Origin: an uncultured Pseudomonadota bacterium
GTDB taxonomy: Bacteria; Pseudomonadota; Gammaproteobacteria; Burkholderiales; Burkholderiaceae_C
Assembly: GCA_945952465.1 (NCBI GenBank)
Contig: CAMFIB010000001.1
Location: 992,001 to 1,056,000, forward strand
Direction of reading: 5' to 3'
Length of the DNA stretch: 64,000 nt
Below are positions 42,573-59,900 of this stretch, one piece after another (positions within the stretch are counted from its first letter, which is position 1; the number at the start of each line of letters is the position of its first letter). Both the position numbers and the translations under genes were made by a program. The notes under the pieces were generated by a model. The model searched no databases. It worked only from the letters and a program-made list of their open reading frames with translations, and was not told the origin of the DNA.

Positions 42573-43862
42573 ATGCTCACAGACCTCGCCCTTCGGAATC
42601 TCAAGCCTCGCGCGACCCTTTACAAGGTCGCTGACCGCGACGGCATGTACGCAGCCATCGCGCCGACGGGGTCCATTTCCTTTCGTTTTGACTACCGCAT
42701 CAATGGCCGGCGCGAGACGCTGACCATCGGTCGCTACGGTTATGGCGGAATCTCGCTCGCCGCTGCGCGTGAAAAGCTCTTGGAGGCCAGGCGGCTGTTG
42801 CGCGATGGCGTTTCGCCGGCCCTGCAGAAACAGAGAGAAAAAGCTCGCGGTCCTGCAATCAAGACCTTTGGTGACCATGCAACCCAGTGGCTCTACGGAG
42901 CCACCATGGCTGAATCGACGCGGGTGGTGCGCAAGAGCGTGCTGAACCGCGACATCCTGCCGGACTTCAGCAAGCGCCTTTTGAGCGAGGTTCGCGCGGA
43001 AGATCTGCGTGCGCTGTGCATGCGCGTGAAGGAGCGCGGGGCTCCGGCGACCGCGATTCATGTTCGGGAGGTCGTCAAGCAGATCTATAGCTACGCCAAC
43101 CTGCATGGAGAAAAGGTAGCCAATCCTGCGGACGAGGTCGGCGCAGCGTCCATCGCCAAGCTCGTGCCTAAGGATCGAGCGCTGTCTCCCGCTGAAATCC
43201 AGTTGATGTGCAGGCAGCTTGACCTGGTGGCGACAGATGCCGCGATTCGGCTCGCCTTGCGTTTGATCTTGCTGACCCTGGTGCGCAAGAGTGAATTGAT
43301 CGAGGCGACTTGGGACGAGGTGGACTTCAATACAGCGATATGGACCATTCCGAAGGCCCGAATGAAGGGGAGGAGGGCGCACAACGTGTACTTGTCTTCC
43401 CAAGCGCTCGATACCATGATCGCGCTGCATACTTATGCCGCCGGATCGAGGTATGTGCTGCCTTCTCGCTATGACGCGGCTCGATGCATGTCGAAGGGCA
43501 CACTGAACCGCGTTACGAGCCTCATCGTCGAGCGGGCGAAAGCAGCAGGGCTTCCGCTGGAATCGTTCACGGTTCATGACCTGAGACGGACCGGGTCTAC
43601 CTTGCTCAACGAGGCCGGCTTCAATGGCGACTGGATCGAAAAGTGTCTCGCACACGAAAGCGGACATTCGTCGCGGTCGGTCTACAACAAAGCGGAATAT
43701 GCCGAGCCGCGCAGGCACATGCTCCAGGAATGGGCGAACATGGTTGATGCATGGGCTGCCGGTGAAACGTACACGCCTGTTTTATCTCCGACAGCAACAA
43801 TCCCCAGGCCCGGTCGTGGAGAACGAAGTGAGGTGGCAACCGCGGAATGTTGCGTGGCGTAG
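42573..43862 (+). CDS. Tyrosine-type site-specific integrase (guaA island)
   Basis: A 429-residue phage-type integrase. The N-terminal DUF4102-like arm-binding domain (LTDLALRNLKPRATLYKVAD, RRETLTIGRYGYGGISLAAA) is followed by a core-binding domain and the catalytic domain: Arg in VRKSELIEATWDEVD, HxxR in TVHDLRRTG, and the nucleophilic Tyr in RSVYNKAEY. The histidine before the nucleophile lies in the SGHSSRS segment. It starts 340 bp after guaA in the same direction, the usual position for an integrase that recombines at the guaA 3' end. The C-terminal tail (ATIPRPGRGERSEVATAEC) is unconserved. Codon use is less GC-biased than in guaA. Confidence 0.93.
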   Translation: MLTDLALRNLKPRATLYKVADRDGMYAAIAPTGSISFRFDYRINGRRETLTIGRYGYGGISLAAAREKLLEARRLLRDGVSPALQKQREKARGPAIKTFGDHATQWLYGATMAESTRVVRKSVLNRDILPDFSKRLLSEVRAEDLRALCMRVKERGAPATAIHVREVVKQIYSYANLHGEKVANPADEVGAASIAKLVPKDRALSPAEIQLMCRQLDLVATDAAIRLALRLILLTLVRKSELIEATWDEVDFNTAIWTIPKARMKGRRAHNVYLSSQALDTMIALHTYAAGSRYVLPSRYDAARCMSKGTLNRVTSLIVERAKAAGLPLESFTVHDLRRTGSTLLNEAGFNGDWIEKCLAHESGHSSRSVYNKAEYAEPRRHMLQEWANMVDAWAAGETYTPVLSPTATIPRPGRGERSEVATAECCVA

Positions 43863-44228: not shown

Positions 44229-47200
44229 TTAAGAACTGCACATGACGGTGAAGGGAATCTCGTAGGTGTCGGAGAGAAACCGTTCCGTAACCGCCAGCAG
44301 CATCAATTGCCCGTGCGAGGCTTGTACTTTCGACAGACCAGGTTGCACGACGTAGACCTTGAGCTTCACATCCGACCGTCTGCTCATCTCCCGGATCTGC
44401 AAGAGCAACTCCTCTGTTCCCCGTTCGAAACGCGTCGGAGCGCCACGCTGCACGCGTTGGTCATTTCGACTGAGCAGGTGAGTAAACAGATCGGTCCGTC
44501 TCCCATGATTGGCAAGCCACGAGGTGCTGCGCTGGGCTTGGCCGCACACGACGTAGAGGTCTTCCAACCGTCTGCCTGGTTCACCACCGGCGTACTTCAG
44601 GTGGTACAGCTCGACCTCAATCCGTGGGACTGTCGGCGTGCTCCGATCGACCGTGATGGCCACAACGTCGGCCGCCTCGTTCGATCCGTCATCGTCGAAG
44701 ATCACGTCGTACGTAGGGTTGCGTTGCAAGCGTTCGATGACGTTGTGCTGGATGGTGCCAGCACGCCGCGCTTCGCCCTGTGACTCGGCACGAATGTCGA
44801 CGCCGGACCAATCCAGGGCCTGGAGGCGGTCTGCGTCATACGGTTGCAGGTCATCCGTCGGGAGGAGAGTGAACTCGCAGCCTTCAAGCGATGACCCATC
44901 GGCGAACCAAATGATCGGCGGATTGTTGGTGAAGAACTCGGCGAGACTCTCAGTCTTCGTGCCCAAGCTGAGGTTGAGGATGATGCCTCGGACATGCACA
45001 AACCGGAAATCGAAACTGTCGTCGATCGGCACGAGTTCCAGACGCAGGACGCTCTCCCATCTGTCCGAGAACACGCGGATCAGCAGCGGATCGGCGGGTT
45101 CGCGCGCCAACACCTCGATGTCAACATTCGTCGAGGGCTCCTCAGCGATCCCGGGTCCCGAGAAGCGGCAACCTGTCTCGGGACGCTCGAGTACCTCCTT
45201 GGGCCAATCAATCGCGACAACGGTTACGGCCGGCACCGTGCCCACGGGTTCAGGCTTCAGCGTTCCAGCTAGCACAGTGTTCGGGTCGATGGTCTCATCT
45301 GCGATCTTCGCGCCAACGGCACGCGCCCATGCCGCAAAGGTGTCGACGCGTAGCCGTAGGTTGGACCACACGCGACCGCGCTTGGCCGCACCGACGGACA
45401 CCATCGCGCCGTGTTCGAACCCTCCGCCCGCCATTACAGCGCGCTTGGCACCCCGCCGCGCCGCGTGACCGATTCGCGATTCCACGTCTGACCCCATCCG
45501 CCCGGTGTACCGGACCTGACGACCCAGATGCTCGTTCAACCCGACATTGTTCAGGACCAGGCGCTTGACCCCGTGAAAGCAGCGAAACACCTGCGGCGCG
45601 ACGATCAGCTGCACGTCCTGGCCGCACAACGCCTTCGCGATCTCTTTGTACTCTCCGTTCAGCCCTGAACCGTGTAGATAGAGAAGCGCGCGTTCGCGAT
45701 CCCAGACTGCGATGAATAACTCCCAGACGGTTTCGCGAATGGACTCGACGTCACTCCAGCGCACGCCCTGTTCCGTCGCCGTCAGAACCACCAGGGTGTT
45801 CTGAACTTCGTTGAGCGTGTGGAACACTTTGTCGCGAGACGTCAGACCGCGCATGCCTCGTCTGAAAAACTTTGGTGTCCAGTTCGCGCAATTCGTTTTG
45901 TAGACGACCATGCTGGCCGCGGGCCGTAGGTCGTTCAGCGGTACCTCATCCAGGAAAACGCCAAAGCCTCGGAAGAACTCCTGCGAGGTTTGCTCGGCTT
46001 CAATCGCTGCCGTGCTCAGCTCAGGCAGCAACACATTCCAGTCAGGATCCTGGCTGTACAGCTTGCGCAGCTCGTCGCGGACGTCGACGAGCGCTATGTT
46101 CGCGATGAAGACCGGATCGCCCAAGTCGGGACGCGCACGCGTGAATCGGCCGGCCAACTGCAGTGTGACAGCAAGGCTCTTTCGAATGTCGTGGAACGCC
46201 GCAATCTTCAACTCCGGCAGATCGAAGCCCTCGCCGAGCATGTCCACGCAGACCACCACCCGTGCCGACCCATCGAACAGCTGTCGCTTCGCGGCCTGTT
46301 GTTCCTTTAGTGACATGCCCGAGTGAATCGCCACTGCCTGATGGCGGGCGAACGATTGGTACAGCGCCAGGATAGTCGCCGCGCGGTGGGTGTCGCCTAC
46401 CCGGGCCATCACGATGTGCTTGCCGGTGGTGTCGGCATCCAACTCGTCCAGGGCGGCCATCGCGATCTTGCGGTCGCCGCTCGTTGCGTTGAATTCGCGC
46501 ACCGCGTGAAAGCGAATAGGCCTGAAATACCCTTCCTGCTGCGCCTTGCGGAGAGGGTAGACGTAGACGAGCTTGCCGTCCATTGCTTGGCCGTCCTCGC
46601 GAAATGGTGTCGCCGTGAACTGCAGGACCAGCTTGTCGCCGAAGCGCTCGCGGAATGTCTTCCACGTCGGCGCTTCCGCATGGTGGGCTTCGTCGATGAA
46701 GAGATGCGTGCACAGCGCGGCCATGCGGTCCTGGACGTCGGCCTCGCACAACCCCACCAGGTGGCTGGTCGCGACCAACACGTTGCAGCTGAGGAAGATG
46801 CTGTCCACCTCCTCGATGGTTTTCGGCTTGGAGGTGAGGGTGCCCACGACCGGGCGCAGCGCCTGCTCTGCCAACACGGCGTTGCCGGGTACCTTCAGTA
46901 GGCCAAGCGTCTCGAATTTCTCCGCGATCTGCGAGCGCAAAGCATCGGTTGGGACGACGACCAGGACCCGCTCACAACAGGCTGACGTCAGGATAGCCAG
47001 CATCGTTTCCGTCTTACCGGTGCCGGTAGGCATGACCACAGTGGCACTCTCTCCACTCGTCGACCAGTGTGCGTGAATCGCGTGCAGCGCGCCGGTTTGT
47101 GGCTTGCGCAGGCCGACCACGCCGTTGCCCGGATCCTCCTCAGCAAACTGGAAGGCGCGAGGCCATGATTTGCGTGCGGCGGTGGCCACCTCCGCGGCTG

Positions 47201-47516
47201 TCGACGGTTCGGCTTCCAGGGCTGGATGCGTGATCCAGGTACCCTCGGTCAGATCAAGTTCGTCCACGTCGATGGACACATCCTTTGCGACCAGCACAGG
47301 TGCGTCGCTTGGCAGCGGCGTCGTCTTGGGACGGGTTGGGAAAAGATACAGCAGGTTCGCGCCGGAGGTGTTTTGGAAAACATGGCCGATCGACTTGGCC
47401 AGCGTGTACTTCACTGAGCGGCAGTCGATCGTGGTCGGCGGGACGGCAATCTGGCGAACCCGGCCCAGACGCGATTTGATATCGACGCCGAGGACAGCGG
47501 GCAACTTGACCTGCAT
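44229..47516 (-). CDS. SF2 DEAD/DEAH helicase with putative C-terminal nuclease motif
   Basis: A 1095-residue protein. Superfamily 2 motifs are intact: motif I PTGTGKT (residues about 163-169), motif II DEAH in LFIDEAHHAE (about 274), motif III FTATPFRED, motif V VDMLGEGFD, motif VI QLAGRFTRARP. The long C-terminal part is not familiar; near its end IFDDDGSNEAADVVAI followed by VELYHLKYA resembles a PD-(D/E)xK core (Asp in AADVV, then xLK). It is last of a minus-strand row downstream of an OLD nuclease and UvrD helicase (71-bp gap), with a GGGGGT ribosome site. A defence helicase-nuclease is inferred. Confidence 0.85.
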   Translation of the reverse strand: MQVKLPAVLGVDIKSRLGRVRQIAVPPTTIDCRSVKYTLAKSIGHVFQNTSGANLLYLFPTRPKTTPLPSDAPVLVAKDVSIDVDELDLTEGTWITHPALEAEPSTAAEVATAARKSWPRAFQFAEEDPGNGVVGLRKPQTGALHAIHAHWSTSGESATVVMPTGTGKTETMLAILTSACCERVLVVVPTDALRSQIAEKFETLGLLKVPGNAVLAEQALRPVVGTLTSKPKTIEEVDSIFLSCNVLVATSHLVGLCEADVQDRMAALCTHLFIDEAHHAEAPTWKTFRERFGDKLVLQFTATPFREDGQAMDGKLVYVYPLRKAQQEGYFRPIRFHAVREFNATSGDRKIAMAALDELDADTTGKHIVMARVGDTHRAATILALYQSFARHQAVAIHSGMSLKEQQAAKRQLFDGSARVVVCVDMLGEGFDLPELKIAAFHDIRKSLAVTLQLAGRFTRARPDLGDPVFIANIALVDVRDELRKLYSQDPDWNVLLPELSTAAIEAEQTSQEFFRGFGVFLDEVPLNDLRPAASMVVYKTNCANWTPKFFRRGMRGLTSRDKVFHTLNEVQNTLVVLTATEQGVRWSDVESIRETVWELFIAVWDRERALLYLHGSGLNGEYKEIAKALCGQDVQLIVAPQVFRCFHGVKRLVLNNVGLNEHLGRQVRYTGRMGSDVESRIGHAARRGAKRAVMAGGGFEHGAMVSVGAAKRGRVWSNLRLRVDTFAAWARAVGAKIADETIDPNTVLAGTLKPEPVGTVPAVTVVAIDWPKEVLERPETGCRFSGPGIAEEPSTNVDIEVLAREPADPLLIRVFSDRWESVLRLELVPIDDSFDFRFVHVRGIILNLSLGTKTESLAEFFTNNPPIIWFADGSSLEGCEFTLLPTDDLQPYDADRLQALDWSGVDIRAESQGEARRAGTIQHNVIERLQRNPTYDVIFDDDGSNEAADVVAITVDRSTPTVPRIEVELYHLKYAGGEPGRRLEDLYVVCGQAQRSTSWLANHGRRTDLFTHLLSRNDQRVQRGAPTRFERGTEELLLQIREMSRRSDVKLKVYVVQPGLSKVQASHGQLMLLAVTERFLSDTYEIPFTVMCSS

Positions 47517-47555
47517 GTGTGTCTACCCCCTAGTTCATGGTGTCCACACGATCTT

Positions 47556-47567
47556 GAGAACGTTCTC
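47556..47567. promoter_or_regulatory. Perfect 12-bp palindrome in the gap before the SF2 helicase gene
   Basis: GAGAACGTTCTC lies between the UvrD stop (47588) and the helicase start (47516), with partial symmetry over 18 bp. It may be an operator for separate control of the helicase gene. Confidence 0.3.
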
Positions 47568-47587
47568 GAGTCCCATCGTTAGTCCTC

Positions 47588-49642
47588 CTAGCCACCAGAA
47601 AGATCTGCGGCTTCATCGGCGGCGGTTCGCGGAGCGAGATGCCGAATCTGCCAACCACGAGCCATCAATTTCGCCGTATTCGTCGCGATGTCCTTCTTCG
47701 TGCCAAGCGAACTGCTTCGCAAAGCTAGGCACAGCAGGTGAGTAGGTCGGGTCATCGCCACGTAGGCCTGCAGTAGCCGTTGCATCGCCTTGTCGCTGGC
47801 GCACTTTGCGCCATTCTGGTGTTGGCCCAAGAGCCACGGCATCAGCCCATGCAGGAAGTGCGTTTGGTTGAAAGTCTCCAGAAGGAGCGTAGCCGAATGG
47901 GTCTGGCCCTTTGCCATGTGGATGGAGCCGAGCCGGATATCGACACTGGTGTTCCCGTGGATGTAGCGGTAACTGTTCGCTGGCACGGACTGAGCTTGAT
48001 TCAGAGTGGCGGGCAGCGTGGGGGGCTCAGTAGTTGGCCAGGCCATGAAGTCGTTGGCGGCAGGCGCGTTAGCAATACACCCGGCCAAAGCGGCCGCAAG
48101 TTTCCGGATTTCGGGGCAGAGCTGTGCCCAACGTGCCGCATCAAGTGGCTCTCGATCGACTACGAATCGGGCGAGCAAGCCACGATACACGGTCCGCATT
48201 TCATCGGCATCCGTGAGGCGCTTTTCTATCTGCAAGTGTTGCCGGCTGCTTGACCGCATTTGCGTCGTTCCTGCCAGCAAGTTGGCGAGGTGAGCGATTG
48301 CTGAAGCGACGCTGTCCACGCATTGATGGAGAGGGCCACCACTCGATGCAAGCACCTGCGCCGCGAGGAGGTTCTCAACGAGGGTGCGTGGCCGATAGGT
48401 CGGACGGCCGGCACCTGGCTGATATCCCGCCCAGTAGTGCGGGACGGTCTTGGGGTATTGCTTGTGGCCGGGTTCCACGTCGGGGAAGGGCTTGTGAACC
48501 GCGCCGACCGCAGTGACCGCCGACGAGGCTATCAGGGGCGCAGGCAACGTGGCGAGCACGTGATGGCCGAAGGCGTCCAGAACGCCGGAAGGATCGTTGT
48601 CGGGAAAGACAAAGATGGTGTGGGGTAGCCCCTGACCTGCCACCGCGGTCGGCCGCACACCCTTCAAACCGCTGGGTTGAACAGGGAGGTAAGCGAAGGG
48701 ATTGGCAAGCGCCCCGATCGACGCGTCGAAGCGGAAGGAGTCGGCAATATTGACGCACCGTATGTTGTCGGGAAATGCATCGGCGACTGGCTTGACCCCA
48801 CCCTCGAAGATGGCCTGGTTCGGATCACCGACGCGCTGGATGCAGACCGCAGGCACGTCACGCGGGAAGAGCCGCCGCAGGAATGCGTTCTGCTGTTCGG
48901 AGGTGTCCTGCATCTCGTCGACTAGGACGAAGGGGAACCGGTTCTGGAGAATAGAGGGAAGACTAGGCTGCTGCGCCAGCAAGGCTTCACCGAGAAGGAA
49001 GATCTCGTCGTAGCAGAAGTAGCCCTGTACAGCCGCATGCTGCAGCGCGGATGCCGCGAGCTGGTACATCTTGGTGTGAGTACCGCTGGGAAAACTCGTG
49101 TTCGCCAAAGGTGTTGCAAAGTTGGCGCTGCCGAGGCGCAGGCTGTCGAAGCTGATAAATTTCTTCTCGAGGTAACCGTTCAGGGTGAAATAGTCTCCTG
49201 GGCTGAGATGGCGACGGCGCACCCTTGTAGTCAGATCGTTGTCGATCGCGGCGACGCGGTAGCCCGCCGACAGCAACCATGGGTTGGCCAGAAAACGATT
49301 CACGAATCCGTGAATGGTGTCGATGAAGTGCGGATAGCCAAGCAGGCGCTGGCCGACATCCGTGTTGCCCAAGCGATGCGCGATCTCCTCGCGCGCTACG
49401 TTGGTGTGAGAGAGGACGCAGATGCCGCGGGTCGTGCTTTTCCACTTGCGCGCGAGAATCGCCAGCTTCGCTACGACGAGCGTGGTTTTGCCGCTGCCGG
49501 GGCAGGCCGAGACGTCTAGCGTGGTCAACGACTTCAGGAAGGATCGCCGCTGCGCATCGAGGGTCTGCAGCTTGAGCAATCCGCGAGCCCACTCGATGTC
49601 GTCATCGGTGATGGGGCCGATCAGGTCAGACGGCGCAATCAT
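47588..49642 (-). CDS. UvrD-like SF1 helicase (GajB-like)
   Basis: A 684-residue UvrD/PcrA-type protein. Walker A is PGSGKT (residues 48-53). Also visible are motif Ia-like VLSHTNVAREEIAHRLG, Walker B VLVDEMQDTSEQQNAFLRRL, motif III RVGDPNQAIFEG, and a late MAKGQTHSATLLLETF equal to motif V. The insertion between the two RecA-like halves is unusual in sequence. Its start overlaps the stop of the OLD nuclease gene by four bases (ATGA). An OLD class 2 nuclease paired with a UvrD helicase is the layout of Gabija. It is longer than the described GajB proteins. Confidence 0.88.
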   Translation of the reverse strand: MIAPSDLIGPITDDDIEWARGLLKLQTLDAQRRSFLKSLTTLDVSACPGSGKTTLVVAKLAILARKWKSTTRGICVLSHTNVAREEIAHRLGNTDVGQRLLGYPHFIDTIHGFVNRFLANPWLLSAGYRVAAIDNDLTTRVRRRHLSPGDYFTLNGYLEKKFISFDSLRLGSANFATPLANTSFPSGTHTKMYQLAASALQHAAVQGYFCYDEIFLLGEALLAQQPSLPSILQNRFPFVLVDEMQDTSEQQNAFLRRLFPRDVPAVCIQRVGDPNQAIFEGGVKPVADAFPDNIRCVNIADSFRFDASIGALANPFAYLPVQPSGLKGVRPTAVAGQGLPHTIFVFPDNDPSGVLDAFGHHVLATLPAPLIASSAVTAVGAVHKPFPDVEPGHKQYPKTVPHYWAGYQPGAGRPTYRPRTLVENLLAAQVLASSGGPLHQCVDSVASAIAHLANLLAGTTQMRSSSRQHLQIEKRLTDADEMRTVYRGLLARFVVDREPLDAARWAQLCPEIRKLAAALAGCIANAPAANDFMAWPTTEPPTLPATLNQAQSVPANSYRYIHGNTSVDIRLGSIHMAKGQTHSATLLLETFNQTHFLHGLMPWLLGQHQNGAKCASDKAMQRLLQAYVAMTRPTHLLCLALRSSSLGTKKDIATNTAKLMARGWQIRHLAPRTAADEAADLSGG

Positions 49643-51663
49643 GCCGCCAGCGCCAGGGCTGCTACGGCAGGCGTCGGCGGGGTGGTGGCGAAGGCGATGG
49701 CTTCCCGGATATAGGCCGGAAGGCGTGCCGACAGCCAGGCACCATCGATCTCGCCTGTCCTCGCGTGCTCGCTCAGCAGGTCAGCCAGATGTTGTGCCGC
49801 AATGGACTTGGAGGCCCGCTTGCTCGAGAACATCTCATAGACATGGGAGCACAACACCTCGCGATCGCCGGCGGCCTGGACCACCAGCGCGGCGTAGTCC
49901 AGCTTCGCGGCCGCCTTGACGTCCGCATGCGTCTTCTTGTCGTTGTTCAAGGGGTCGTCGTTGGCTGCGAGGACGGCGGCAATGTAGACCTCTTCGGCGA
50001 GGCCGGCGAATGCCAGGTCGTACTCCAGCGTCCATTCATTGGCGACGAAGGTCTTGATGTTCTGCCCATCGCCTTCGCTGAGCCGGGTCCGCTTAGCCTC
50101 GAGTCCGGCTTGCCGTTCGGAAGGGGTTGCGCCGAACTCGCGTTTGACCCGCCATTTGCGACGCGGACTGCTCCACTTCGGGTCCACATCGTCTGCGACC
50201 AACTCCAGGATGCGGGGTGCGCAGTCCGGCATCACATCCATGTCGGCCAGGCAGGCCGTCGGAATCGCAAAGACGCCCTTGGCGGGATCCTGGCGTTGAA
50301 GGATTCGTGCATAGCGTCGCAAGCCGGTGCCTCCCACATTCACGATCGACACGCCGTGCTGGGTCAAGTCACGGCCGATCAGCCGAGCGAGCGTCGGTAC
50401 CAGGAGGGCCTCGCCGTCGCCCTCCACCACGATCAGGCCGCGCGCAAAGAACAGGTTGGCCTTGGTCACGTCGAGGAAGCGCTGTAGGAACCTGTAGTCG
50501 CTCTTGCTCAGGTGCGTGTGGCCTTCGGCCATCGAGTAGGCGCCTTGCCGATGTAGCAGCACCAGGTTCTGCAACGGGATCTTCGACGTCAGGTTGGGGC
50601 TGTGGCTGGTGACAATGACTTGCACTTGGCGTCGAGTGCTTCCCACCAAGGGCTTGGCGGCGGCTTCCAGGAACTCCATCAAGCGTAACTGCCGTTGCGG
50701 ATGCAAGTGCGCTTCCGGCTCCTCGATCAGCAGCAGGGGGAGGCCATCGGGTTCCTTGCCCAGCAACAGCAGCTCGCAGGCCATGAACAGCAGGTTGTTG
50801 GAACCCAGGCCGTACGTGCCGCGGGACCGACCATCCGGACCTGCGAGCAGGTCCAACTCCAGGCGTTCGAGGATCTGCCGTAGCCGAGCTGCATCGGTGC
50901 CGCCTTCTGCGAAACTGATGCGCCCGTGCAGCGCCTCGCCGGCAAGCGACAGGCGGGCCAGGTAATCGGTATTGATAGCCTTCTGCGCACCCCCGATGCC
51001 TTCATGCTGGTCGACCAAGTGCCGCAAGTAGTCGGACAGCCCGGACAGACTCAAGTTGGCCGCCTGCGCCGCGTCGGCCGGCGGCGAGGCCGCGTCGAAC
51101 GGCTGCCCCTTCTTGATCTCCGGGAAATTGTTCAGGATCTGCGACAGACGGGAGCCGCGTCCCGGCGACATCTCGCGCTCGGCATCGCGCAAGGGACGCA
51201 GGTAGGCAGTCGCAAGCAGCTGCCGGACCGTCGCGTCGAAGGGAGGGCCCTCGCCCGCAGGGCCGCTGCGCACCGCGATGTCGACCCATCGCCGGCTGCC
51301 GGGTGTCTCGCTCAGACGGCGCGCAGACCAGTGCACATAGAGGGCGACCTCCGCACCCTCGTACGTCAGGTATTCGGCGAACGCGCCTTTCTCGCTGTCT
51401 GTTAGCCCGGACAACCGGGCCCGGATCGTGATCTCCGCCGCTTGCTGCCCATCGGTTCGGATGTGGAAGTCCTCGGGTTGCACGCGCATGAATTCCATGT
51501 CACGGGTCGTCAGCGCATGCCGGATCGCGTCGATGACGGCCGTCTTGCCTGCATCGTTTTCACCGACGAGTGCCGTGACGCCTTCGCGAAACTCGATGGA
51601 AAACACCGGGTCACCAGCACCAAATTGCCGGAAATTCTTGATCGTGAGCTGTGACAGAAACAT
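49639..51663 (-). CDS. OLD family ATP-dependent endonuclease (GajA-like)
   Basis: A 674-residue ABC-type ATPase fused to a TOPRIM nuclease. Walker A is GENDAGKT (34-41), the signature region is YGLGSNNLLFMA, Walker B is LLLIEEPEAHLHPQRQ with a D-loop/His switch in VTSHSPNL. The TOPRIM motifs are LIVVEGDGEALLVPTLARL (Glu) and ACLADMDVM (DxD). This is the class 2 OLD architecture, found next to UvrD-like helicases. It shares a four-base overlap with the helicase gene, so the two are translated together. It is about 100 residues longer than B. cereus GajA as I recall it. Confidence 0.9.
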   Translation of the reverse strand: MFLSQLTIKNFRQFGAGDPVFSIEFREGVTALVGENDAGKTAVIDAIRHALTTRDMEFMRVQPEDFHIRTDGQQAAEITIRARLSGLTDSEKGAFAEYLTYEGAEVALYVHWSARRLSETPGSRRWVDIAVRSGPAGEGPPFDATVRQLLATAYLRPLRDAEREMSPGRGSRLSQILNNFPEIKKGQPFDAASPPADAAQAANLSLSGLSDYLRHLVDQHEGIGGAQKAINTDYLARLSLAGEALHGRISFAEGGTDAARLRQILERLELDLLAGPDGRSRGTYGLGSNNLLFMACELLLLGKEPDGLPLLLIEEPEAHLHPQRQLRLMEFLEAAAKPLVGSTRRQVQVIVTSHSPNLTSKIPLQNLVLLHRQGAYSMAEGHTHLSKSDYRFLQRFLDVTKANLFFARGLIVVEGDGEALLVPTLARLIGRDLTQHGVSIVNVGGTGLRRYARILQRQDPAKGVFAIPTACLADMDVMPDCAPRILELVADDVDPKWSSPRRKWRVKREFGATPSERQAGLEAKRTRLSEGDGQNIKTFVANEWTLEYDLAFAGLAEEVYIAAVLAANDDPLNNDKKTHADVKAAAKLDYAALVVQAAGDREVLCSHVYEMFSSKRASKSIAAQHLADLLSEHARTGEIDGAWLSARLPAYIREAIAFATTPPTPAVAALALAA

Positions 51664-51800: not shown

Positions 51801-53408
51801 TCAAACGGCAATCCGCGCTGCAGTCCCCGCATGCTCACGCAAGAGATACAGTAGCCCGCCGCCATCAATCAGTTCAATGGGCTTGTCTTTGGAAAAGTTG
51901 TACGCATCAGGCCCATAGCCACTGGTGCAGACCAGGATGCCCTTGTTGGCCCCTTCATTGAGCATGGTTCCGTACAGATCCCGAACGGCACTCACTCCCA
52001 CCGTGTCGCGATAGCGCTTGGCTTGGATCACCACCTTGCCGCCGAGCACCGGGCGGGTGTCGAAGGCAACAGCATCCACGCCGCCATCGCGTGAACTACG
52101 CGTGAGCTTGGTATCAAGCCCCATCTTGCTGAAGAGATTGGAGACGAGTACCTCGAAGTCTGCCGGCGTCAGGTCCATCAGATTCGGGCGCGTTTCAAGC
52201 CCTGACAAGGCATCCCCCTGCTCAATGAAGCGCTTGTCGACCATGTCGAATTCGATGATTGGCTTGACCGCTTGCAACTCGTCCGGGCGGTTGGATACCT
52301 GGGCGCCGAGATTTCGCAGGCAGGCCACCTTGTCGACTTTCTCCAGCCGTAGGCCCAAGAATTCCATCTTAGGTGCCCGGACCGACACAACCGGCACCCG
52401 CACTTCGCGCCCACTGGCCGGATCGTGGGTGTCCACCATGCCATTGAAGGTAACCAGCGCGAGCGCATCAGCCTGATCGGCTTCAAACAGCTCGTGCAAG
52501 GTACGCAGCGTGATCGAGGCGACGATGTCCTGGTAGAGCTGCTTGATCTCAGCCGGCTTTCTGGCCTTGGACTCAATGACATCCTTGGTCTTGACGTAGC
52601 GGTACTCTGCCTCCTTCGGGATTACCTGTACTTCCGGCAGGTCGTACTCAACGATCAGTTCCGATGAATCGGGGCTGTAGGCGATGCGGAATTTCTGCGG
52701 GAACCCTTCCGTGGGGTACTCCGACCGGGCCAGCACCATCTCGTTGTAGGCCACTACAGCATCTGGTTCCTTCGCGTGGTAGGCCGTCTGGAATTCATCA
52801 ACCTCGGCGTTACGGCGCTTGACCTCCCTCTCGAACTGGCTCTTGCTCTGGTCGTAGTCCGCCTTGAGCTTGGCAAACTGCTCGCGCTTGGTGGCCTCGG
52901 CCTGGTTGAAGCGCACGACGTCCGACTGATGGTCGCTGGCTGCTCTGGACAGCGCGGCAGCATGCTTTTTGGCAGCTCCCGGAATCAATTTGCGCAGGCC
53001 TGAGGGTGGGGAGATCTGTGGCGCGCGTGGGGCGCGGCCCGGTGCGAGTTCCGGTGGTGGTTTGAAGGCTTCGAAATCCGCGGCCGGCCGCAGTGCATCA
53101 AAGTCGATTCGGTCATCCAGCGACAACGTATGCGCCAGGATGCCTTGCAGTTCTTCAAGTCGATCATGCAGTTCGGCGTTCAGGTCATCGGCTTCGCCCT
53201 GCCGGTCGGCCAAGTACTGCGCCTTGGCGAGTTTCTGCGCGGCACGGTCGTCACGGTTCTGCTGTGCCAGCGCCATGCGTTGATGGCGCTCGATCTGCCG
53301 CGCCTGGGTCAGTTGCGCACGGACGCCGCGCTGACGCTCACGCTCCGCGGCGGCCACTGCCCGCGCCGTGGCGCGCAGGAATCCCTCAAATCCGCTTCTT
53401 CGCCCCAT
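51801..53408 (-). CDS. Mrr-type restriction endonuclease with N-terminal coiled coil
   Basis: A 535-residue protein. Residues about 15-95 are a charged coiled-coil-like stretch (ERERQRGVRAQLTQARQIER), a second one lies near 175-230 (EATKREQFAKLKADYDQSKS). The C-terminal ~120 residues are an Mrr-type catalytic domain: LTPADFEVLVSNLFSKMGLD, then D445 in DGGVDAV and Q462-x-K464 in VVIQAKRY. Mrr enzymes cut modified or foreign DNA. The middle part (beta-rich, MEFLGLRLEKVDKVACL) is unrecognised. It follows the membrane-anchored Mrr gene by 30 bp; 137 bp separate it from the OLD gene. Confidence 0.88.
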   Translation of the reverse strand: MGRRSGFEGFLRATARAVAAAERERQRGVRAQLTQARQIERHQRMALAQQNRDDRAAQKLAKAQYLADRQGEADDLNAELHDRLEELQGILAHTLSLDDRIDFDALRPAADFEAFKPPPELAPGRAPRAPQISPPSGLRKLIPGAAKKHAAALSRAASDHQSDVVRFNQAEATKREQFAKLKADYDQSKSQFEREVKRRNAEVDEFQTAYHAKEPDAVVAYNEMVLARSEYPTEGFPQKFRIAYSPDSSELIVEYDLPEVQVIPKEAEYRYVKTKDVIESKARKPAEIKQLYQDIVASITLRTLHELFEADQADALALVTFNGMVDTHDPASGREVRVPVVSVRAPKMEFLGLRLEKVDKVACLRNLGAQVSNRPDELQAVKPIIEFDMVDKRFIEQGDALSGLETRPNLMDLTPADFEVLVSNLFSKMGLDTKLTRSSRDGGVDAVAFDTRPVLGGKVVIQAKRYRDTVGVSAVRDLYGTMLNEGANKGILVCTSGYGPDAYNFSKDKPIELIDGGGLLYLLREHAGTAARIAV

Positions 53409-53438: not shown

Positions 53439-54365
53439 TCAGGCGCTCTGGATCTCACGCGTGCCTCGGCATCCTTCAGAAAACGCTGAGCATCCCCAGA
53501 AAGCTTTGCCCGCTGCGGCGCCTCGCTTCGCCACGCGCCGCGCCATCGGCTTCCCGCATCGGGGGCAGGACGGTTCTTCGGCAGGCGCTGTCGGCTCCAA
53601 GGCTTCGGTCATCCCTGTCGCCTCGATGTGTCTGTCGGGCGACGCCACACCTTGCGGAGTAATTAAATTGGAAGCCAATGGACGGTCCTCACCCTTGTCG
53701 CGCGCTTCCCGCAGCAGTTTCATGAGGGCAGGACCATCGATCAATTGGATGTTGCGACCGTTGGCGAATGTCGAAGCCTCTTGCGTAAAGCGCCCAGAGG
53801 TCACAACGAAGCCGCCCGCAGCACCGTGCGCGGCCATCACGCCATACAGTTCCCGCACGGTGGAGACGCCCACCTTGAAGGCCTTCCACTGCTTGCATTG
53901 CACGAAAGTCTTCTCACCAGCCTTGGTGAGCACTAAGTCCACGCCGCCGTCGGCGCCACCACCGCCAATCTCTTTGACTACATAGCCCCGGCGCCGGAAA
54001 CCTTCACCAACCAGCAGTTCAAACTGCTGCCAGGACATGCCCTGAAGTGCATCGGCGCTGCTGCTTGCCGAGGTGGTATCGAACAGGGCGCGACGTTGCC
54101 GGCGACGTACCGCCGACATGACGGCCCCGAAGAGGCAGATCATCGGCAATAGATACTGGCCTCCCGTGGCGAGGCCTTGCCAAATGGCCGTCGTAGCCAT
54201 CTGGCCGATTTGCTGAGCTGACTGTGCAGCAGGCAGGGGACGTGTCGCAACGGCATGCAGCAGCCAGTAGCTGACAAGGGCCAGACCAACACCTGCCCAC
54301 CAAGGTAGCAAGGCGACCAGATCCATGAGATCTTCGGCCGCGCTGGACTTTCTTCGTCTCGCCAT
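53439..54365 (-). CDS. Membrane-anchored Mrr-type restriction endonuclease with zinc ribbon
   Basis: A 308-residue protein. Two hydrophobic segments (VALLPWWAGVGLALVSYWLL and YLLPMICLFGAVMSAV) form an N-terminal anchor. The Mrr catalytic domain follows: MSWQQFELLVGEGFRRRGYV, DGGVDLVLTKAG, FVQCKQWK (Asp and QxK). The C-terminus is a topoisomerase-type zinc ribbon (CPRCGKPM, then FWGCSAFSEGCRGTRE). The ATG at 54365 has a GGGGA ribosome site; an upstream start would add 17 unlikely residues. It is first of the minus-strand defence row. Similar proteins are called type IV restriction enzymes, but activity is not shown. Confidence 0.9.
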   Translation of the reverse strand: MARRRKSSAAEDLMDLVALLPWWAGVGLALVSYWLLHAVATRPLPAAQSAQQIGQMATTAIWQGLATGGQYLLPMICLFGAVMSAVRRRQRRALFDTTSASSSADALQGMSWQQFELLVGEGFRRRGYVVKEIGGGGADGGVDLVLTKAGEKTFVQCKQWKAFKVGVSTVRELYGVMAAHGAAGGFVVTSGRFTQEASTFANGRNIQLIDGPALMKLLREARDKGEDRPLASNLITPQGVASPDRHIEATGMTEALEPTAPAEEPSCPRCGKPMARRVAKRGAAAGKAFWGCSAFSEGCRGTREIQSA

Positions 54366-54878
54366 TGATTCCCCGTTGAAACCACGATCTGCAAATTGAT
54401 AAACATTCTGCAACAAGTTTCGAGGCGATTTGCCCGTGAGTCGGAGGGAATGCCCTCATTCGGTGCATCACCAAATGCGTGTCGCAAAATGGCGATGGAG
54501 TGGTGATTCGCGGGAAAGAGTGGATAGCTTGCCCGCCACCTGATCTTGGCGCCCAGCGATACCTTCACTTCGCACATTCGCAGTGCAGCGCGAATGAGGT
54601 GCAGGCCCTGCGCTTGCACTGCACGTAGGCGAACGCCGTGTCGCCCGGCACCACGGTGCGGCGCGAACTGGCAGTCTCGAGCGGTGCGAGATCTTCCGGT
54701 CTGTGAGCGCTGGCGGCGGTCCCACGAAGCCAGCCGTGGCGCTTGGGTCAACAGGGGTTGAGCGGGAAGCGGTGGAGCCTGGCTGGCCAAACGTAGCCCG
54801 CAGGCTTGGATAACAAAGATTTGCACGATAACAATCATGATGTTATCGTGCTGAAGTCTTGTTGCTTTAAAGTCAGCC
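54366..54878. other. Divergent intergenic region with no clear gene
   Basis: No convincing gene is seen. On the minus strand, roughly between 54560 and 54745, an open stretch without a start codon reads ETASSRRTVVPGDTAFAYV and then a cysteine-rich end (CTSFALHCECAK). It might be a gene remnant but nothing supports this beyond the open frame. The right end carries the palindrome at 54823-54851. Confidence 0.4.
54823..54851. promoter_or_regulatory. 29-bp palindromic operator upstream of the AbiEi-like gene
   Basis: GCACGATAACA and TGTTATCGTGC are perfect inverted arms of 11 bases around ATCATGA, centred 42 bp before the GTG start at 54879. AbiEi-type antitoxins are known to bind inverted repeats in front of their own operon, so this is a likely autoregulatory site. 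Confidence 0.7.
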
Positions 54879-55868
54879 GTGCCCCGTCTCACCACCGACA
54901 TCCAACTGTACCTTCATGAGGTACTGGGCATCGCCATGCCTGGCGTGAAAGCCTGGGCAGGTGCCGACGCGTTGCCGTACTTCCTGCGCGATGCCTTCGA
55001 ATTCAGCGAAATCGAACTGCTGGGGCAGCCGATTGTGCTGGCGGAAGGCCGTGCCGATTCGGCCACGCCGCTGAGCGACATCCGAGCCTGGATGACCAAG
55101 GTCAGCGCCACGGCTGGCCGGCCGGCGGTCTATGTGACTGACGCCCTGGCCTCCTATGAGCGTAAGCGCCTGATCGCTAACAAGCTCCCGTTCATCGTGC
55201 CGGGCAACCAACTCTATCTGCCTGACCTCGGCCTCGACCTGCGGGAGTACTTTCGCCAGCGCACACCTGCCGTCGATGTGCTCAGCCCCTCGGCGCAAGC
55301 CATGCTCGTCTTCGCGCTCCTGCGCCAGCCGTGGGACGCCGACTGGCAGCCCGCTGAGACCGCCAGGACCCTCGGCTACACCACCATGACCCTGTCGCGT
55401 GCGGTCAAGGAGTTCACGGCGGCCGGCCTCGCCACCGTGCGTGTCGCCGGCCGCGCGCGCGTGCTGCGCATGGAAGGCACGCCTGATGAGGTGTGGGAAC
55501 GGGCGAAGCCGCTGCTGCGCACGCCGGTACGCAGCACGGTCTGGGTCGATGGCCGCACGCTAGCCAACCCGATCGGGCGGCTGGCCGGCCTGAGCGCGCT
55601 GGCACGTCTCTCGATGCTGGCCGAGCCACGCTGGCCGATCTACGCGCTCACCAGCGCCGACTGGAAGGCTGCGAGCGAAGCCGGCGTCCGAGAATTGCCA
55701 GAGCCCGCGCCCGGCGCCCAAGAATGGCAGGTCTGGTGCTACAGCCCGGCGCTGGCACCGCAGGCTACCACCGTGGACCCATTGTCGTTGACGCTGAGCC
55801 TGCAGGACAGCGCCGATGAGCGGGTCCAGAGCGCGCTCGACGAGTTGAAAGGGCACTTCCCATGGTGA
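54879..55868 (+). CDS. AbiEi-like antitoxin / winged-helix regulator
   Basis: A 329-residue protein. The central part (ETARTLGYTTMTLSRAVKEF, then TAAGLATVRVAGRARVLRM) reads as a winged helix-turn-helix. The remainder, with a late GRLAGLSALARLSMLAEPRW and YALTSADWKAA, matches large AbiEi-type or MarR-like regulators coded next to nucleotidyltransferase toxins. The start is GTG with no clear ribosome site, 28 bp after a perfect palindrome. Its TGA stop overlaps the ATG of the next gene. Antitoxin plus autorepressor is the likely role, by family and context. Confidence 0.75.
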   Translation: MPRLTTDIQLYLHEVLGIAMPGVKAWAGADALPYFLRDAFEFSEIELLGQPIVLAEGRADSATPLSDIRAWMTKVSATAGRPAVYVTDALASYERKRLIANKLPFIVPGNQLYLPDLGLDLREYFRQRTPAVDVLSPSAQAMLVFALLRQPWDADWQPAETARTLGYTTMTLSRAVKEFTAAGLATVRVAGRARVLRMEGTPDEVWERAKPLLRTPVRSTVWVDGRTLANPIGRLAGLSALARLSMLAEPRWPIYALTSADWKAASEAGVRELPEPAPGAQEWQVWCYSPALAPQATTVDPLSLTLSLQDSADERVQSALDELKGHFPW

Positions 55869-56638
55869 GGGGGCTGGATGTTTTTCGGAAATCGTTCGCG
55901 GCCTATACGGACCAGTACGTCCTGATCGGTGGCACCGCAGCAACCTTGACCATGGAAGACGCTGGCTTGGCCTTCAGGGCAACGAAGGACCTGGACGTCG
56001 TCCTGCACGTCGAGGCCCTGACACCGGCCTTCGGCGAAGCGTTCTGGAGATTTATCGACGCGGGAGGCTACGAGATCCGCCAGGCCAGCGAAGCGACGAA
56101 GCCGAACTTCTATCGCTTTATCAAGCCTGCCGACGAGCGCTACCCGGTCATGATCGAACTGTTCGCCCGCGCGCCCGACGGCTTGAAGCCAGCCGAGGGC
56201 AGCAAGCTCACGCCTATCCCGCTGGACGAGGCGGTCGCCAGCCTGTCTGCCATCCTGTTGGACGAGACCTACTACGCGTTCATCATGGGTGGCCGCCGCG
56301 AAGCTGACGGCCTACCCTGGGTCGGCGAGGACCGGTTGATCCCGCTCAAGGCAGTTGCCTGGCTTGAGCTCAGCGCGCGCAAAGAGCGCGGAGAACCAGT
56401 GGATGCGAAAGACGTGCGCAAGCACCTCAACGACGTGCTGCGCCTCTCTCAGCTGTTAGCGGCCAACACGCGAATCGAACTCGACGCAAGGATCGCGGGT
56501 GACCTCACCAAATTCTTGGCAGCAGTGGCCGCTGACCCCAGCATCAACCCCGGCGCCTTGCAACTGGGCAGGGTGACGGTCGCCGAACTCGTCGCCCGGA
56601 TCGCCCGGGCCTATGGCATCGAGTTGTCGGCGTCCTGA
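55862..56638 (+). CDS. AbiEii-like nucleotidyltransferase (predicted toxin)
   Basis: A 258-residue protein of the nucleotidyltransferase fold. The first motif is LIGGTAATL (GG-T) and the metal-binding Asp pair lies in RATKDLDVVLHVE; the later IPLKAVAWLEL and KDVRKHLNDVLRL helix fit the AbiEii/MNT pattern. AbiEii-like enzymes are toxins that modify RNA or nucleotides. The start lies within the last codons of the AbiEi-like gene, so the two are translated together as in type IV toxin-antitoxin operons. It may equally serve as a defence module with the genes downstream. Confidence 0.78.
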   Translation: MVRGLDVFRKSFAAYTDQYVLIGGTAATLTMEDAGLAFRATKDLDVVLHVEALTPAFGEAFWRFIDAGGYEIRQASEATKPNFYRFIKPADERYPVMIELFARAPDGLKPAEGSKLTPIPLDEAVASLSAILLDETYYAFIMGGRREADGLPWVGEDRLIPLKAVAWLELSARKERGEPVDAKDVRKHLNDVLRLSQLLAANTRIELDARIAGDLTKFLAAVAADPSINPGALQLGRVTVAELVARIARAYGIELSAS

Positions 56639-56651
56639 GAGGGAGGGACAG

Positions 56652-56957
56652 ATGGCCCTGCTCAAAAGCTGGTGCAACGGTACCCAGGAGAAAGCGAAGA
56701 AGACTTGCCGCACCTACACCGAGAAGTCCGGCAGTCGCGCGAAGGTCCTAGCGCGGCTGGGCAAGATCGTCCGCTCCCACTACGACCAAGCGGGCTGCAT
56801 TGCCGACGATATTGCGCGGCTTGGGTATGCGGGCGACGCTGCAGCAATCCAAGCGTGCGTGGCGGCGACTTCGGGCGGGGGAGCCATGCGGTGGGACGAT
56901 GACAGAACGATCACGATGCTGCGACCCGACGCAGTGACTATCGATGACATCTCCTGA
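56652..56957 (+). CDS. Small protein of unknown function, coupled to the STAND NTPase
   Basis: A 101-residue product that I do not recognise. It begins MALLKSWCNGTQEKAKKTCR, is basic in the first half and predicted mainly helical (KVLARLGKIVRSHYDQAGCI), then acidic toward the end (WDDDRTITMLRPDAVTIDDI). The ATG at 56652 has a GGAGGGAC ribosome site. Its stop overlaps the STAND gene by 14 bases, and the NTase gene ends 13 bp before it. Tight coupling to a large nuclease-NTPase suggests a regulator or inhibitor, but this is inference. Confidence 0.75.
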   Translation: MALLKSWCNGTQEKAKKTCRTYTEKSGSRAKVLARLGKIVRSHYDQAGCIADDIARLGYAGDAAAIQACVAATSGGGAMRWDDDRTITMLRPDAVTIDDIS

Positions 56958-59900
56958 ACTCGTCGGGGGTACCGGATTCACCTACGAAGATGCTGTCGGG
57001 GCCCACTATCTTGCGGCCCTGCTCGGCGGCACAACTGCGGCTGGGCTCGGTTCGAGGATTGTGAACCGAGTGACCCAGCAGCAAGCCAGCTTCGGCGAGC
57101 CGCTTGATGACGTGATCGTCGATGCCGTCGCCCCCGCCGACAGCTCCGTGATGCGGCTGTCGCTGCAGGTCAAGCGGGCGCTCACGATTTCCGATGCGCC
57201 GAGCAACACCGACTTCCGCGAAGTGATCCAGCGCAGTTGGCAGACCCTGCAGAAGCTAGGCTTTCGCGACCAGGTGGACAGGGTCGGCGCTGCCACCGAC
57301 ATGATCTCGGCGGATGCGTTCAGGGACTTCACGACCGTGTGCGAGTGGGCGAGGGCGTCGGCCACGCCGGCCGCCTTCATGAAACGGTTCGTCGACGGCG
57401 GCAACGGGTCGCTGGCGCACCGCGCGGTGGTGAGCGCCGTCCGCAAGGTCATGGAGGACGCCCTGGCAGGGCCCTTCCCTGACGGCAGCTTGCACCGCTT
57501 GTTCCAGCATCTGACGCTCATCCGGTTCGATTTCCTGCACGAAGGCTCGGCCCAGGAGGCGGATGTCTTGGCCGGCCTGCAGCGGTCCCTGGCGGCGAAC
57601 CAGGTCGGCCGCGCCGGCGAGTTGTGGAACCTGTTGCGTCTGGCGGCGCGCGATGGCGCCGGCCGCAGTGCCGAGCACACCCGAGCTTTGCTGCTCCGCG
57701 GCTTGGGGGGCGGTTGGCGGTTCAGCGGAACGCCGGCGCTCGCCGCCGACATGCAGCTTCTGCGCGAAGGCACGCGCCATTGGTTGGCGCAGCAAGCCGA
57801 CGACATCGGCGGCATGCATCTCGACCGCCAGGGCTTGCGTGATCAACTGGTCGCGCAACTGGCCGCGCACCGCTTGACGCTGGTCAAGGGCCTGCCGGGG
57901 GCAGGCAAAACCGTTCTGCTGCGTGACCTGCTGCAAGCGCAGGCGGTTAACGGGACGACCTTGCTGCTCACGGCCAACCGCTTGTCAGGACGGAGTTGGA
58001 CCGAGCAGGCTCGCGCGCTGGGGCTGTCGGCCACCGCGATCGAGCCGCTCTTGGTGGAGGTCGCCGCCACCGGGCACCCTGTCCTGTTCATCGACGGCAT
58101 CGACCGGGTGGCGCCGGAGCACCGACCCATCATCACCGACCTTCTGGGTCAACTGCTCGCCAGCCCCGCGCTGGCCGACTGGCGTGTCGTGGCGACAGCT
58201 CGTGACGCCGGCATCGAACCCCTGCGCAATTGGGTTCCTGCAGCGTTGTGGTCAGGGGCCGGCGTGGGCTACGTCGATGTTGACAACCTGTCGGACGACG
58301 AAGCCGCAGTTCTCGCCGACAAGCTGCCCGCGTTGCGGCCGTTGCTGACCGGCGGCAATGAGCGCGTGCAGACTTTGGCGCGCCGACCTTTCTTTGCGGC
58401 AGTCCTGGCCCGCGGGCTCTCGCGCGCGGCGTACCCGGCCGAGTTCGCGCCGCAGACCGAAGTCGAGCTGGTGGATGCCTGGTGGACGCGGGGCGGCTAC
58501 GACGCGCAGGCGCCCCAGGCCTTGGCGCGGCAGCGGGCCTTGATCGAGCTGGCGCAGCGTAGCGCCCCCGACCTCGGCCGCAACCTGCGCATCCGCGACC
58601 TGTCCGCGACGACACAGGCGGTATTGCCCGCGCTAGAAGAGGACGGTCTACTGCAACAGGTGCGACAGGGACACACGGCTCAGTTCAGCCACGACATCTT
58701 CTTCGAATGGGCGTTCTTCCATTTGATGGTTGACCAGGGTGCGGACTGGATCGCCGTCTTAGCGGCCGCTGGGGAGCCGCCAGCGCTGGCTCGCGTCGTC
58801 GAGTTGCTGTCTCAGTCCACCTATACGGACCCAGAGCAGTGGTCCCGTGAGCTCGCTGCCCTCGAATGGGCGCAGGTACGGCCACAGTGGCTGCGGGCCT
58901 GGCTGATCGCGCCGGTTTTCAGCCCGCGCTTTGCCGAACATGCGGAGATGTACGGCACTTCCCTGGCGGCCAACGATCACCGCCTGCTTCGCAAGCTGCT
59001 GGTGTGGATGCAGGCCGAGAAGACCACGCCCAACCCCATGGTGCTGTCGGGCTTGCTTGGAAGCGAAAGCATGCTGCCGGCCGCCCGCATCCGCCTGGCC
59101 GATTCCCTGGGATGGCCCTCCGATTTCGCGGCCTGGCGACGGCTTCTCTCGTGGCTGCTCCAGCGTTTGGCATTGCTTCCCGACCGCTGCCTACCGGATC
59201 TGGTCACGCTGTTCGAGACCTGGCAGGTCGCGTACGCGGACCACCCGAATCAACTGTCGCAGCGCATCGTCACCCAATGCGCAGCCTGGCTGGATGCCAT
59301 CGAAGGCCAGCGCTATTCCTGGCGTGCGCGCCGTACGCTCCCGACCGGAGAAGGCGCTTCACCGCCGCGCGCTCCGTCGAACCTGCAAACCGAGCTGCGC
59401 AACTTGGTCCTTCGCGCCGGGCGCGCCTATCCGGACATTGTCAGCACCTACCTTTCGAAGATCGAAAGGATTGCGCGTTGGCAGGATAAGGGATATCGAG
59501 AGGTCATGGCTTATGCGCCGCTGTTGGCGCAGACGCATCCCGCCTTGCTGGCGCAGGTCGCGCGGCGTTGGTTCTTGCAGGAGCTGCCGGACGACAGCAT
59601 GGCTCGCTGGCACAGGGAGGACCACGAACAGGAGGAGATGCTCAAGCGGGTGGCGGCGATCCCGCCGGAACAGCGGACCTGGTCCGACAACATGACGCTG
59701 GATAGCCCGAACATCGGGCGGGCCTCCTTCTCGAACCACGACTGGGATCGGCTGTCGATTGGCGCCGACCATCACGGCTACTTTCCTGCCTCGCCGCTGC
59801 GCGAACCGTTCGACGCGCTGTTCCAACACGATCCCGCAGCGGCCTTGGCCCTCGTCCGCGACATCGTCAATCACGCCATGACCGCATGGCGGCAACTCCA

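Follow-up and report, generated by a model that had tools for sequence, protein, structure and literature searches.

Gabija, an anti-phage system of two genes, encodes the OLD-family ATPase/Toprim nuclease GajA and the UvrD-family helicase GajB, which form a complex (PMC10822852, PMC10781630). In P. aeruginosa, Gabija stops the circularisation of linear phage DNA that is not engaged by RecBCD (PMC12407980). Two other described systems couple a helicase motor with a nuclease. In Hachiman, HamB holds HamA in check until DNA damage is encountered (PMC12278908), and Hna is a single-chain helicase-nuclease that suffices as a complete defence (PMC13381803).

The window, that is, the whole stretch of 64,000 nucleotides analysed here, carries a gajA-gajB pair followed on the same strand by a gene for an SF2 helicase with a predicted nuclease domain (Table 1). 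A preliminary description had read the three genes as an enlarged Gabija in which the third gene adds DNA unwinding and cleavage. We prefer a different reading, to which we assign a probability of about 0.75: the window holds two independent DNA-targeting defence units, a standard Gabija and a self-sufficient SF2 helicase-nuclease, which lie next to each other on an integrase-linked island that carries them as cargo.

Table 1. Features of the locus, in positions of the window.
Feature	Position	Strand	Basis
Tyrosine integrase; island end, probable vehicle of the defence cargo	42573..43862	+	Phage_integrase and Arm-DNA-bind_3
SF2 helicase-nuclease, 1095 aa; interpreted as a defence unit of its own	44229..47516	-	ResIII, DEAD and Helicase_C domains; homologue neighbourhoods
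Predicted C-terminal PD-(D/E)XK-type nuclease domain, residues 921-1093	44235..44753	-	AlphaFold, VIA-align, conserved motif
SF2 motor, XPB/RadD-like, about residues 135-465	46119..47111	-	Pfam and similarity
14-codon ORF, probable remnant of the 218-codon gene of L032; in neither defence unit	47535..47576	-	Gap alignment with L032
gajB: UvrD-family helicase, 684 aa	47588..49642	-	PADLOC PDLC00105 match; 4-base overlap with gajA
gajA: OLD-family ATPase/Toprim nuclease, 674 aa	49639..51663	-	PADLOC PDLC00099 match; Toprim residues

The gajA-gajB pair

The ORF calls confirmed the layout exactly as first described, with three minus-strand frames, gajA and gajB adjacent, codirectional and overlapping by four bases, and 71 bp (47517-47587) between gajB and the SF2 gene. 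The identification of the pair as Gabija also held. The gajA product matches the PADLOC GajA model over residues 1-662 (E 3.5e-194) and the gajB product matches the GajB model over residues 9-667 (E 3.6e-163), while Pfam recognises AAA_15 and an OLD-like Toprim in the former and UvrD-helicase in the latter. All 12 GajA sequences aligned share the Toprim residues E413, D473/D475 and K618. Both proteins had been thought longer than those described. GajA does exceed the 578 residues of its B. cereus counterpart (PMC8136825), but the two proteins are not enlarged, since the PADLOC models that match them best have lengths of 626 and 649 and the relatives collected here measure 598-738 aa (GajA) and 608-687 aa (GajB). 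Because the model matches run end to end, the lengths are normal for the subfamily and the Toprim residues are invariant, the pair is, judged from its sequence, an ordinary two-gene Gabija anti-phage system. It agrees with the described system in family, gene order and overlap, and differs in having an unrelated SF2 gene downstream, which is absent from the described system and from the other Gabija loci checked. A search of viral contigs with the GajA of the window gave one match, weak and partial.

Gabija and the SF2 gene in other genomes

SF2 homologues were gathered from genomes, plasmids, phages, viral contigs and E. coli, and their neighbourhoods were searched for GajA and GajB. Of the SF2 loci compared, about 55, only L032 of Acidovorax delafieldii repeats the order of the window, and its DNA is 91-92% identical across two upstream Mrr genes, gajA, gajB and the SF2 gene. 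The one other neighbouring pair is in L085, an A. baumannii plasmid, where gajAB lies 409 bp from a distant SF2 homologue on the opposite strand, in divergent orientation. Thus, the SF2 gene is not regularly found beside gajAB in unrelated genomes. Among the plasmid matches listed, an SF2 gene and a GajB-like gene occurred together only in NZ_CP026129, and SF2 and Gabija genes are each present in about 1% of the sampled genomes.

The SF2 gene also occurs where Gabija was not detected. The homologue of Rubrivivax (L031) is 90.6% identical, and no GajA or GajB was found on its contig, which covers 2.8 kb upstream and 5.5 kb downstream; the SF2 gene there is flanked upstream by a gene for a PIN-domain protein and downstream by an integrase-like gene. 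DNA homology between L031 and the window starts 26 bp before the SF2 start codon and ends at the stop codon, and is therefore limited to a gene that was exchanged alone. L066, from the genus of the window itself, has the SF2 gene, and its 20 kb (8 kb on each side) gave no match to Gabija. Conversely, ten other GajAB loci (L086, L087 and L118-L125) lack the SF2 gene. In the SF2 tree, the window and L032 are nested among Gabija-free relatives, their fork being moderately supported (90/69), and L085 stands far off on a long branch whose exact place is unsure. Since L085 is distant from the window and L032, the pairing of Gabija with SF2 would have arisen at least twice.

A true three-gene Gabija would have the SF2 gene transcribed together with gajAB, and the SF2 protein would supply the GajAB complex with unwinding and cleavage. 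The common strand, the 71-bp gap and the order kept in Acidovorax would all fit such a system, as would the Gabija pair beside the SF2 homologue of L085. We nevertheless consider it extremely unlikely, as L031 and L066 have SF2 without Gabija, ten GajAB loci are without SF2, another gene parts gajB from SF2 in L032, and most SF2 loci have other neighbours. In gene neighbourhoods the SF2 gene is independent of Gabija. Its homologues usually stand alone or beside other partners, which is the distribution that the preliminary description had itself named as speaking against its proposal, and the neighbourhoods thus rule against the three-gene system. Co-transcription of gajB and SF2 is possible in the window, because the genes share a strand, are 71 bp apart and have no promoter-like or terminator-like site detected between them. 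Given the order in L032 and the adjacency in L085, a loose functional link between Gabija and SF2 may exist.

The spacing itself probably has a simple history. In L032 a gene for 218 residues (L032:9267-9920) stands between gajB and SF2. The 14-codon ORF of the window aligns with the first bases of this region and is preceded by an identical AGGAGG; past a junction near 47544-47549, the alignment continues with the bases immediately ahead of SF2. The lineage of the window probably lost about 700 bp here, which best accounts for the 71-bp spacing; a gain of the sequence by insertion in L032 is less likely. The closeness of gajB and SF2 would then be due to this deletion, which joined two cargo genes. 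The 218-residue protein was also considered as a lost partner and set aside; it matches nothing in PADLOC, Pfam or PHROGs or among the plasmids, and homologues are absent from the other loci.

A predicted nuclease domain in the SF2 protein

The motor of the SF2 protein is closest to XPB, RadD and SauUSI. No known family could be assigned to the whole protein, as its PADLOC, Pfam, NCBIfam and PHROGs matches are confined to the helicase core. Neither Pfam nor NCBIfam has a model that matches the last 200 residues, and the C-terminal domain matches no Pfam family at E up to 1, including DUF1837, the family of HamA.

AlphaFold modelled residues 893-1094 with a pLDDT of 91.7 and a pTM of 0.90 (30 homologues as input), the full-length model being less certain (pLDDT 76.1, pTM 0.47). 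VIA-align placed CdiA-CT first among the structural neighbours of this domain (Z 9.2, rmsd 3.3, 145 residues aligned), with HamA of Hachiman (Z 9.0, rmsd 4.2, 165 aligned) and FokI (Z 8.0, rmsd 4.0, 135 aligned) next, followed by Shedu SduA, BspD6I and MspJI. Foldseek alone gave weak matches, the best being FokI (E 0.011), and a Z under 8 in the structural aligner may reflect a common arrangement; for this reason the case for a nuclease fold rests on the restriction-type nucleases in the top rows together with a motif. This motif, E946, D949, H971-x-K973 and Q992, is invariant in 28 homologues. In the predicted fold, D949 lies just ahead of the second core strand and HxK closes the third, so that the PD-(D/E)XK core, an acidic residue and the lysine are all placed, with H971 replacing the usual acidic residue. 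HxK instead of (D/E)xK is unusual. The models support a PD-(D/E)XK-type nuclease fold at the end of the SF2 protein, and the C-terminal nuclease region first suggested as a possibility is borne out at the level of a predicted fold. To our knowledge, the SF2 family has no described defence activity.

The protein resembles Hachiman in combining an SF2 helicase with a nuclease domain whose predicted fold is HamA-like, although a shared fold does not establish function. It differs from Hachiman in being a single fused chain, in its XPB/RadD-like motor where HamB is Ski2-like, and in having HxK where HamA has ExK (PMC12278908). HamB models cover only about 50 residues near its P-loop, at E 1e-3 or weaker. 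As this likeness of fold comes without a match to the sequence families, we do not assign the protein to Hachiman. With Hna it shares the plan of a single protein in which an SF2 motor at the N-terminus is joined to a PD-(D/E)XK domain at the C-terminus. Hna, however, has 845 residues and a DinG-like motor (PMC13381803), against 1095 residues and an XPB/RadD-like motor here, and we set the two apart by published length and motor type.

Other neighbours of the SF2 gene

In about 22 of the roughly 55 SF2 loci, the SF2 gene lies directly behind genes for an AddB-like nuclease and an AddA-like helicase-nuclease, and these loci are alphaproteobacterial wherever the organism is named to class. The row AddB-like, AddA-like, SF2 is seen at L041:3877-19368 and in its relatives L038-L043, L049-L051 and L058-L064, and the trio is also carried by the plasmids L076, L077 and L090. 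It often continues with ZacA, ZacB and ZacC, and BREX genes adjoin it in two plasmids. We take ZacABC to be the Azaca system; a literature search under the gene names ZacA, ZacB and ZacC found nothing relevant, and several papers mention Azaca. The AddA-like protein does not qualify as housekeeping AddA, because it scores 308.7 bits with the addA_alphas model, below the cut-off of 860.75. The three genes are a candidate three-gene helicase-nuclease system. Like the window, this row has an SF2 homologue (39% identical) right behind a gene for a UvrD-family helicase; unlike in the window, where it is GajB, the helicase here is AddA-like and includes a nuclease domain, and the row has no OLD protein.

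Type I restriction genes are a second recurring neighbour. In Vibrio and in G620, the SF2 gene stands behind type I restriction genes, a DUF3696 ATPase gene and a gene for a 296-residue protein. The latter two lie between the restriction genes and SF2 (L081:7159-9515, L126:11341-13694) in two proteobacterial classes. In E. coli, an SF2 homologue lies between type I restriction genes and a gene for a 421-residue protein (L130:7001-13622, L131), and the locus adjoins an integrase gene and tRNA-Leu.

The SF2 protein could be a mobile accessory effector module that joins varied DNA-end and restriction systems. Its partners would be an AddAB-like pair in alphaproteobacteria, the type I restriction systems of Vibrio and E. 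coli, and Gabija in the window. Its repeated place behind the AddA-like gene, behind type I restriction genes (L081, L126, E. coli) and behind gajB is what such a module would show. Yet about two dozen SF2 loci have neither the AddAB-like pair nor type I restriction nor Gabija, so a partner is not generally required, and adjacency of genes is no proof of joint action; we regard the module as unlikely. In a related and equally unlikely reading, the SF2-nucleases would be an uncatalogued mobile defence family that cooperates with the AddAB-like, type I restriction and Gabija genes it repeatedly follows, and the pairing with Gabija would be a functional alliance rather than plain adjacency.

The frequent vicinity of integrases or recombinases, together with the resemblance of the motor to the repair helicases XPB and RadD, might instead point to a function that serves mobile elements in DNA repair or maintenance. 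The neighbours of SF2 are often defence genes, however (BREX, type I restriction, Zac, Gabija, AbiE-like and AbiH), and the integrases near it belong to different families, which makes a role outside defence very unlikely.

The integrase-linked island

Relatives of the integrase of the window (63-82%) border L032, L039, L042, L052 and L122. This one integrase family is thus found with varied cargo: Gabija without SF2 in L122, SF2 with AddAB-like or Zac genes in L039, L042 and L052, and both Gabija and SF2 in the window and L032. When 41.8-42.7 kb was compared with the opposite side, out to 80 kb, no exact repeat of at least 16 bp was found that an attachment site might have left.

A stretch of lower GC content extends from 42573 to about 68000, running past the window (in L068); it is bounded on one side by the integrase and carries several defence-like genes. 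Two Mrr-type restriction endonuclease genes lie upstream of gajA on the minus strand (51801-53408 and 53439-54416), in an order kept in L032. On the plus strand, a two-gene unit (54879-56638), whose second protein weakly matches the AbiEii nucleotidyltransferase, may be an AbiE-like pair. It is followed by a gene for a 1797-residue protein (56944-62337) with a NACHT-like NTPase and weak similarity to Avs4 and the PADLOC PDC-M54A models, and by a gene for an 823-residue protein (62422-64890) that runs past the window, the part inside weakly matching NERD (nuclease-related domain).

Proposed mechanism and implications

By analogy with published Gabija, the GajA and GajB of the window would act as one complex on phage DNA. 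The SF2 gene is probably a separate, widely travelled defence-island gene that encodes a one-protein, DNA-cutting defence. Most likely, one chain would unite a sensor with an effector. Its XPB/RadD-like motor would load onto abnormal or phage DNA and, at the cost of ATP, bring the C-terminal PD-(D/E)XK-type nuclease of the same protein into place or set it free. The control of HamA by HamB is the closest precedent and the single-chain Hna a further one, both serving as analogies. The analysis itself shows the identity of the genes, the predicted fold of the nuclease, the conservation of the motifs and the separateness of SF2 from Gabija in gene neighbourhoods; we infer the enzymatic activity, the defence function, the trigger and the order of the steps.

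The three-gene Gabija was a false lead, which looked convincing through the probable deletion that left 71 bp between two cargo genes. The SF2-nucleases are a widespread helicase-nuclease family with a predicted HamA-like nuclease domain, for which the defence, domain and annotation libraries searched (PADLOC, Pfam and NCBIfam) hold no model. The remaining interest lies in this unmodelled family and in its conserved trio with the AddAB-like genes.
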